Assembly: GCA_028870115.1 (NCBI GenBank)
Contig: JAGWQH010000041.1
Coordinates: 1 to 42,518 of the forward strand
DNA: 42,518 nucleotides
Origin: Candidatus Methylomirabilota bacterium
GTDB taxonomy: Bacteria > Methylomirabilota > Methylomirabilia > Methylomirabilales > Methylomirabilaceae
Reading direction: 5' to 3'
In this document: piece after piece, positions 21,259-23,172 of the stretch
Numbering within the stretch: the stretch's first letter is position 1
How the letters are laid out: each line of letters begins with the position of its first letter
The notes under the pieces: generated by a model
Told to the model about the DNA's origin: nothing
The model's database searches: none
What the model saw: only the letters and a program-made list of their open reading frames with translations
Position numbers and translations under genes: made by a program

Positions 21259-21519
21259 ATGGAATTTGAATACGGCGAGGAAAAAAGTCGAAGAAACAAG
21301 GCAAAACACGGGATCGACTTCATAGAAGCGCAACGTCTCTGGGAAGACTCCGAACGGGTTGAAATCCCAGCGAAAACAGACGATGAAACGCGCTCTATTG
21401 TCATAGGTCTTATCGATCGAAGGCACTGGTCCGCGGTCTTTACCCACAGAAGCGACAAGACGCGAATTATCTCAGTCCGTCGTTCACGACGTGAGGAGAT
21501 CCACATTTATGAAAGCTAA
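21259..21519 (+). CDS. brnT: BrnT-family toxin, copy 1
   Basis: 86 residues. Typical opening 'MEFEYGEEKSRRNKAKHGID' (family pattern EWDxxKaxxNxxKHGv) and late 'TRIISVRRSRREEIHIYE'. BrnT is a RelE-fold ribonuclease toxin blocked by BrnA. It overlaps the antitoxin gene by 11 bases. The middle is more diverged from the family than copy 2 at 34360. Confidence 0.82.
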   Translation: MEFEYGEEKSRRNKAKHGIDFIEAQRLWEDSERVEIPAKTDDETRSIVIGLIDRRHWSAVFTHRSDKTRIISVRRSRREEIHIYES

Positions 21520-21733
21520 AGCGTTCGACGAGAAATTCGATAAGGGCGAAAGTATCCTGAGACATCTCGATCTGTCGAAGGCCATTCGCCCCGGGAGCCA
21601 ACAGCGAAGGGTGAACGTTGATTTTCCGGTCTGGATGATCGAATCACTCGATAAAGAGGCCAAGCGACTCGGCGTGACTCGTCAATCAATCATTAAGGTC
21701 TGGATCGCTGAGCGTTTGCAGAAGCATGCATAG
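21509..21733 (+). CDS. brnA: BrnA-family antitoxin, copy 1
   Basis: 74 residues from ATG 21509 (GAGGAG upstream inside brnT). A flexible N-terminal part is followed by a ribbon-helix-helix DNA-binding domain: 'RRVNVDFPVWMIESLDKEAK' and 'LGVTRQSIIKVWIAERLQ'. It should neutralise the adjacent BrnT and repress the common promoter. 21734-22000 holds nothing that I can support. Confidence 0.82.
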   Translation: MKAKAFDEKFDKGESILRHLDLSKAIRPGSQQRRVNVDFPVWMIESLDKEAKRLGVTRQSIIKVWIAERLQKHA

Positions 21734-22000: not shown

Positions 22001-22590
22001 CTAATCTCCCCGTATGTCCTCGGCCAAACGAATTCCCGTGAATTGCCACCGCTTCTCGGGCTGAAAGTAGTTGCGGTAGCTGATCCGGATATGATCTCTT
22101 GGTGTGACGCAGGAACCACCCCTGAGAACCATTTGGTTCACCATAAACTTACCATTGTACTCTCCGAGCGCCCCCTCCGCCGCTCGATAGCCGGGATACG
22201 GCAGATACGCGCTGTCGCTCCATTCCCAGACATCGCCACACATCTGGAGAGGTTGTACGTTCCCTGTTCTCCGGTCGCCAAGTGGGACGGGATGGTACGC
22301 TGCAGAGTCGAGGAAGTTGCCCTCTATTACCTGAACGCCTAAGGCCTGCGCTGCAACTTCCCATTCAGCTTCGGTGGGCAGACGCTTGCCCGCCCACTTC
22401 GTAAAGGCATCTGCCTCAAAGTAACTCACGTGGCACACAGGTGCATCCTGCCCAGGGGCCTCAGACCCGACAGCGTGAACATGTCAAACCTCATCGCTCC
22501 GCAGCCGGTAGACCGGTCTCAACAGATTGCCGGCCAAGATCTACTTGATGTCCGTCAGTAACGGCTCTTGATGCTGCTGCATGGGGCAAG
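22001..22590 (-). pseudogene. egtB: decayed egtB (ergothioneine biosynthesis protein)
   Basis: The 3' part is an open frame of 145 codons from 22438 with the FGE-sulfatase-like domain of EgtB: '[20 protein letters not shown]', '[19 protein letters not shown]', '[20 protein letters not shown]'. Upstream the family pattern continues only in pieces: '[10 protein letters not shown]' (other frame), 'ILAGNLLRPVYRLRSDEV', and 'QQHQEPLLTDIK' with its neighbourhood of the DinB-type iron site. It is broken by frameshifts near 22455 and 22480, in-frame TGA and TAG codons, and a two-base loss in the HEQQHQE motif. The N-terminal third is missing. EgtB would be an iron enzyme joining a thiol to hercynine; here it cannot be made. 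Confidence 0.8.
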
Positions 22591-22618: not shown

Positions 22619-22824
22619 CGGTCACCCATCTGGCGTGGGAAGACGAGAACTTTCTCCTTGCACACGACGCGGGTATCCGTCACGATGGGGCATGGAAATC
22701 ACACGGAGGGATTGATGGCCAGGCAAGCCTCTTAGCGCTGTTGCGAGCGCCCTCTAGCGGAACCCTTGAGCGTGCAGTCTGGACCGTCTGTATCTATCAT
22801 GATGGCCTGATGGAGGAGATTCCA
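22619..22824 (+). other. open frame without start, directly upstream of and in frame with the selenoprotein gene
   Basis: After a TAG near 22613 the frame stays open to the ATG at 22825 and reads 'AWEDENFLLAHDAGIRHDG' and 'IDGQASLLALLRAP'. There is no suitable start codon before ATG 22810. It may be the tail of another decayed gene, or chance. I do not recognise a family. Confidence 0.25.
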
Positions 22825-23172
22825 ATGGGACGAGTTGATTGGAGATACCACCGCCCTGGGTGAAAGAGCTGCACCAAGACGCAAGAGTTTCTTGCGAAAC
22901 ATCGTGTCGAGATCGGGGTGCAGGTGGATGCGAAGAAAACAACCCTGAAGGATCAGGAGGCGCTTGCGCTGGTTCGAGAGGTGGACGAGATCTACGCGAC
23001 GAAAGGGCAGAAGGTTATCCACGTTGACCTGCGGAAGGACAAGCCGGACAGGGCTCAGCTTTTGGCGCTCCTGCTGGGCCCGAGCGGGAACCTGCGAGCC
23101 CCGACCCTTCGGAAGGGACGCACGCTTGTGGTCGGCTTTGACGTGGCGACCTACGAGCAATTGCTTCGATAG
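22825..23172 (+). CDS. probable selenoprotein: ArsC/Spx-like thioredoxin-fold protein with UxxC motif (TGA at 22861 read as Sec)
   Basis: From ATG 22825, with GGAGGAG six bases ahead, the frame reads 'MGRVDWRYHRPG', a TGA (22861-22863), then 'KSCTKTQEFLAKHRVEIGVQ' and on to a stop at 23172: 115 residues with the TGA as position 13. The TGA takes the place of the first Cys of a CxxC redox motif (U13-K-S-C16), at the N-terminus of a thioredoxin-fold protein of the ArsC/Spx type; the late 'LRAPTLRKGRTLVVGFD' fits that family. A SECIS-like hairpin follows (22880-22896). Without Sec decoding the natural ribosome site would serve a 12-codon peptide, and the rest would need a GTG at 22918 inside the domain with loss of the active site. 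The function is probably a thiol/selenol oxidoreductase; the substrate is unknown. Confidence 0.78.
22880..22896 (+). promoter_or_regulatory. bacterial SECIS-like hairpin
   Basis: CGCAAG-AGTTT-CTTGCG, a six-pair stem with a five-base loop whose second base is G. The loop begins 22 bases after the TGA. Bacterial SECIS elements lie within the coding sequence just after UGA, with a small apical loop 16-37 bases downstream and a G among its first two bases; this one satisfies all three points. Confidence 0.7.

Follow-up and report, generated by a model that had tools for sequence, protein, structure and literature searches.

Selenoproteins resembling the arsenate reductase ArsC have been described repeatedly, and in more than one form. 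A report of 2006 described ArsC-like selenoproteins (PMC1794560), and the selenoproteome of the Global Ocean Sampling survey, published in 2008, included a UxxC family designated "Arsenate reductase 2" (cd03032) (PMC2398784). A UxxC arsenate reductase-like family is also found in a review of 2022 (PMC9312934), and a review of 2026 gives the UxxC family NF041106 by accession under the name "Arsenate reductase-like protein" (PMC13188914). ArsC selenoproteins with a UxxS motif exist as well (PMC2398784, PMC13188914). The 2026 review further describes one Methylomirabilota assembly for which 63 selenoproteins are predicted (PMC13188914); the organism considered here is close to Candidatus Methylomirabilis, within a phylum already known for selenoproteins. 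The gene examined below adds one more member to the listed family, from a bacterium related to Methylomirabilis, the nitrite-dependent methane oxidiser.

The window, that is, the whole stretch of DNA that was analysed, comprises 42,518 nucleotides of contig JAGWQH010000041.1. On its forward strand a Shine-Dalgarno-like site, GGAGGAG at 22812-22818, lies 6 bases 5' of an ATG at 22825, from which a frame runs for 12 codons, meets a TGA at 22861-22863, and continues for another 102 codons to a TAG stop at 23170-23172. With the TGA translated as selenocysteine (U), the complete gene (22825-23172) specifies a protein of 115 residues in which U13 lies within the sequence GUKSC and opens a UxxC motif (U13-K-S-C16). 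The initial annotation had proposed this ribosome site with its six-base spacing, the interrupted frame, and the placement of the TGA at the head of a CxxC motif, all of which are borne out by direct reading and translation of the sequence. Its prediction that a standard gene caller would go astray also proved correct, as the table-11 list of open reading frames holds only the truncated form that begins at GTG 22918 (22918-23172). A search of the whole genome recovered the full gene again, with one TGA inside, and the locus illustrates how a selenoprotein lost by a plain gene caller can be regained from raw sequence. No sigma-70-like promoter was found by consensus just upstream, a result that carries little weight in this phylum.

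The read-through protein is an ordinary member of the NCBIfam family NF041106 (ArsC_rel_Se_1, "ArsC family (seleno)protein"). It matches positions 1-107 of the 107-position profile with a score of 144.1 bits (E 2e-42), against a curated cut-off of 85 bits, and no feature separates it from that family, with which it has in common the full-length match, the selenocysteine of the UxxC motif, a downstream SECIS-type hairpin, and the occurrence of Sec/Cys pairs across phyla. Its likeness to "Arsenate reductase 2" (cd03032; PMC2398784), another ArsC/Spx-like UxxC selenoprotein, is at the level of class and motif. The nearest homologues, 84-87% identical, are labelled Candidatus Methylomirabilis or Methylomirabilota, and among 95 genomes from the phylum 35 carry a member above the cut-off, each with exactly one TGA. 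More broadly, 80 loci from named genomes include representatives of Methylomirabilota/Rokubacteria, Acidobacteria, Planctomycetota, Gemmatimonadetes, the Melainabacteria/Obscuribacterales group, Verrucomicrobiales, Tectomicrobia, Bdellovibrionales, and the myxobacterium Minicystis rosea; a search of plasmids found no relative. The description of the gene in the initial annotation as an "unannotated-looking selenoprotein" is right as to selenoprotein but not as to its being unannotated in general, because NF041106 exists and is listed in the 2026 review (PMC13188914); the family is already known and the gene is not novel.

The codon at the selenocysteine site varies among homologues in a highly restricted way. 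Across many phyla, 97 distinct homologous sites have TGA in 86 cases and TGC or TGT in 11, with no other codon found, and a first-pass tally likewise gave TGA in 82 of 93 loci. Position 13, at which the initial annotation had proposed comparing homologues, is accordingly Sec or Cys in all of them, and the TGA at codon 13 together with C16 provides the (U/C)xxC arrangement, Sec or Cys in first place, that membership of NF041106 calls for. Such pairing of Sec and Cys at one site is the pattern that a genuine selenoprotein should show.

Bacterial SECIS elements are short and variable, and surveys of them describe a hairpin with an apical G located about 16-37 bases 3' of the TGA. The corresponding element here is a seven-pair hairpin, CGCAAGA-GTT-TCTTGCG, at 22880-22896 on the forward strand; its stem begins on the 17th base past the TGA (16 bases between), as the initial annotation had claimed, and the first base of its apical GTT loop is G. 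The in-frame TGA is thus followed by an apical-G hairpin at the expected distance, the combination by which a bacterial selenoprotein gene is recognized. Folded with little flanking sequence, the hairpin has an energy of -8.5 kcal/mol (z -3.4, with none of 200 shuffles as good), but when 45 bases are folded together the z-score falls to only -0.7. As the fold energy of a single sequence is weak evidence, the case for the hairpin is carried by comparison among homologues. An Rfam scan of the window returned two tRNAs only and no match to a SECIS family, which does not count against the hairpin given how short and variable these elements are.

In that comparison, 93.7% of stem cells are paired in Sec forms versus 48.1% in Cys forms. 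Of the 86 Sec forms, 66 have all seven pairs and 78 have six or more, a level reached by 0 of the 11 Cys forms. When the partner strand is slid by one base, pairing in the Sec forms is 37-52%, and the best other slide, of two bases, gives 67%; the 48% pairing of the Cys forms is no better than in such slid versions. The apical loop begins with G in 85 of 86 Sec forms. At the pair adjacent to the loop, GAG (Glu) has TTT as its usual partner and GGG (Gly) is matched exclusively by a partner ending in C (TTC), so that an amino acid change is coupled to a synonymous one (counts for Glu or Gly codon versus TTT or TTC, 50/12/0/23; Fisher p 2e-12, a value that overstates the independence of these related sequences). 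In some Planctomycetota the stem starts with CCC or CTC in place of CGC and the partner bases match. In the Sec forms Leu23 is encoded by CTT in 77 cases of 86, a codon absent from those listed for this Leu in the Cys forms. Constraint on the protein alone would not explain this contrast, and the family offers a clean comparative case of Sec forms with the hairpin and Cys forms without it.

The machinery that the initial annotation had taken to be implied, and had suggested looking for, is encoded in the same genome, whose assembly (2.8 Mb in 122 contigs) is about 100% complete with 3.9% contamination. Matches above the respective cut-offs were found for selA (596 bits), selB (386 bits, full length), and selD (396 bits), along with a tRNA-Sec gene, selC, at 65.9 bits and with anticodon TCA. 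Among the genomes sampled, selA scores above its cut-off in 28 of 29 with a Sec form versus 6 of 11 with a Cys form (p 0.004); some of the absences may reflect incomplete assemblies. The selD gene (L017, G000:C66:1534-2460) holds one in-frame TGA of its own, and the selenophosphate synthetase of this organism is probably itself a selenoprotein.

The locus is almost certainly a true selenoprotein gene, in which UGA 13 would be decoded by means of SelB and the hairpin to yield a small redox protein of thioredoxin fold belonging to the ArsC/Spx superfamily. Every check put forward in the initial annotation that lends itself to computation came out on the side of this reading. That the TGA is instead a real stop, or a miscalled TGC or TGT, with either the 84-codon frame from GTG 22918 or nothing being made from a pseudogene, is the reading to which the table-11 list, with its GTG form only, would lend itself, and the open frame taken alone, a run of 102 codons, has a chance of about 3% at this GC content. 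A chance open frame is excluded, however, by the conservation of frame and TGA in 35 of 35 above-cut-off members within the phylum and by the differences between the gene and four congeners, which fall mostly at third codon positions. Miscalling, which the initial annotation had named as one of the findings that could overturn it, is very unlikely because independent relatives share the TGA, and the hairpin is conserved in the TGA forms only. Comparison with relatives effectively refutes a pseudogene or sequencing error, which is scarcely credible.

The structural model of the protein is a confident thioredoxin-like fold (pLDDT 94.5) in which U13 lies just before the first helix and the sequence LRAP precedes a core strand, where the cis-proline loop usually lies. 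Among solved structures, Spx and ArsC-related proteins come closest to it. Agreement with these is confined to the core (TM about 0.55, rmsd 6-8 A), so that catalysis cannot be transferred from either. Residues 55-68 form a beta hairpin in the model (strands 55-60 and 63-68), whereas ArsC and Spx are helical in the matching middle segment. The label "ArsC/Spx-like" in the initial annotation holds for the fold family, but does not demonstrate an arsenate reductase or an Spx regulator. An arsenate reductase proper, in which Sec13 would stand in for the catalytic Cys of ArsC and attack arsenate, is suggested by the match to PF03960 (ArsC), by the ArsC-related proteins among the structural matches, and by the known UxxS selenoproteins of ArsC type. 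It is nevertheless unlikely, as the motif here is UxxC instead of UxxS, the Pfam score of 28.2 bits is barely above the cut-off of 24, no ars genes were recognised among recurrent neighbours, and the middle segment as modelled departs from ArsC. The UxxS form of ArsC (TIGR00014) has the superfamily and the position of the chalcogen residue in common with the present protein, which differs in its second Cys at +3, its weak sequence similarity, and a gene context in which nothing related to arsenic was seen. A selenium-based regulator of Spx type, in which UxxC would serve as an oxidant-sensing switch and the protein would bind RNA polymerase alpha, is quite improbable. Spx of Bacillus subtilis (PDB 1z3e, 6ghb) is the closest solved relative by both profile and fold, sharing the thioredoxin-like core and an LRxP motif, and its CxxC and LRRP align with U13-C16 and LRAP; yet here Sec replaces Cys, the middle segment is predicted as a beta hairpin and short helices, and the score against the Spx/MgsR family TIGR01617 is 38.8 bits, well below the cut-off of 75.

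Judged from sequence and model, the most likely activity is that of a Sec/Cys thiol oxidoreductase. W6, Y8, and R10 never vary in the alignment of homologues, C16 is present in 99 of 100, GPxxxLRAP is found in all, and the residue preceding G61 is always Lys or Arg. Ribosomes would start at ATG 22825 and, at UGA codon 13, SelB bound to the hairpin would deliver Sec-tRNA-Sec, as in established bacterial Sec decoding, after which translation would run on to the TAG at 23170. The selenol of Sec13, located where the first helix begins, would then most likely attack a disulfide, peroxide, or other oxidised substrate. Cys16 would resolve the intermediate by forming a selenenylsulfide, to be opened by a reductant of the thioredoxin or glutathione type. 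Judging by the invariance of Arg10 and Arg91, the conservation of Lys/Arg60, and the location of the LRxP motif at the cis-proline loop, these residues probably hold the selenol in its ionised state or bind an anion.

Gene neighbourhood was rejected as a guide to function. Clustering of the neighbours of 80 homologues and the congeners gave no gene conserved beside the family across phyla, and so no clue to a substrate; the largest cluster covers 13 loci, and its sequence is that of a common protein kinase. Neighbours common to other Methylomirabilis, judged by sequence to be probably a lytic-transglycosylase-like and a zinc-transporter-like protein, are not adjacent to the gene in the window. 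The window does contain, at 21259-21733 (+), a BrnT-type toxin gene (80 bits) followed by an overlapping CopG-like antitoxin gene (21.6 bits, below the cut-off of 28). At 22001-22438 (-), an open reading frame matches part of the formylglycine-generating-enzyme (FGE-sulfatase) domain; its best stretch begins at profile position 94, and the front part seems to be missing.

A second ArsC/Spx-like Sec subfamily, sister to this one, occurs in the same phylum. It is marked by the motif YNxxGUPxC..AREFLS, a conserved P-V loop, and an RG motif, and is represented by L049:541-861(+), L050:1498-1818(-), L131-L138, and L139-L168. These UPxC proteins score roughly 27-51 bits against NF041106 in genome searches, and 58.6 for L049 by hmmscan, below the cut-off of 85; with L049 as the query, no other NCBIfam model scored above its cut-off. 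The subfamily has its own near-invariant SECIS-type hairpin, GCGAGGGAGTTTCTCTCGC or GCGAGAGAGTTTCTCTCGC, and TGA is found in 30 of 30 copies retrieved. A full-length copy with one TGA is present in about 32 genomes, and a copy without TGA in two further genomes. Two genomes of the window's own genus, G006 and G011, have the UPxC protein, with no NF041106 member found. A search of 199 Acidobacteriota genomes, run without a positive control there, gave no match at E 1e-20, and the subfamily has no obvious row in the table of the 2026 review (PMC13188914). Tentatively, NF041106 proteins may be neither arsenate reductases nor Spx regulators but a class of selenol oxidoreductase in their own right, with the middle segment remodelled, accompanied by an undescribed Sec-dependent UPxC sister in Methylomirabilota that replaces it in some genomes. 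The search with the sister profile also returned many short TGA-containing matches of about 67 residues in Methylomirabilota, several per genome (for example, G008:C10:307656-307856, G006:C48:13982-14179, and G022:C95:8659-8859), which are possibly glutaredoxin-like Uxx-star selenoproteins.
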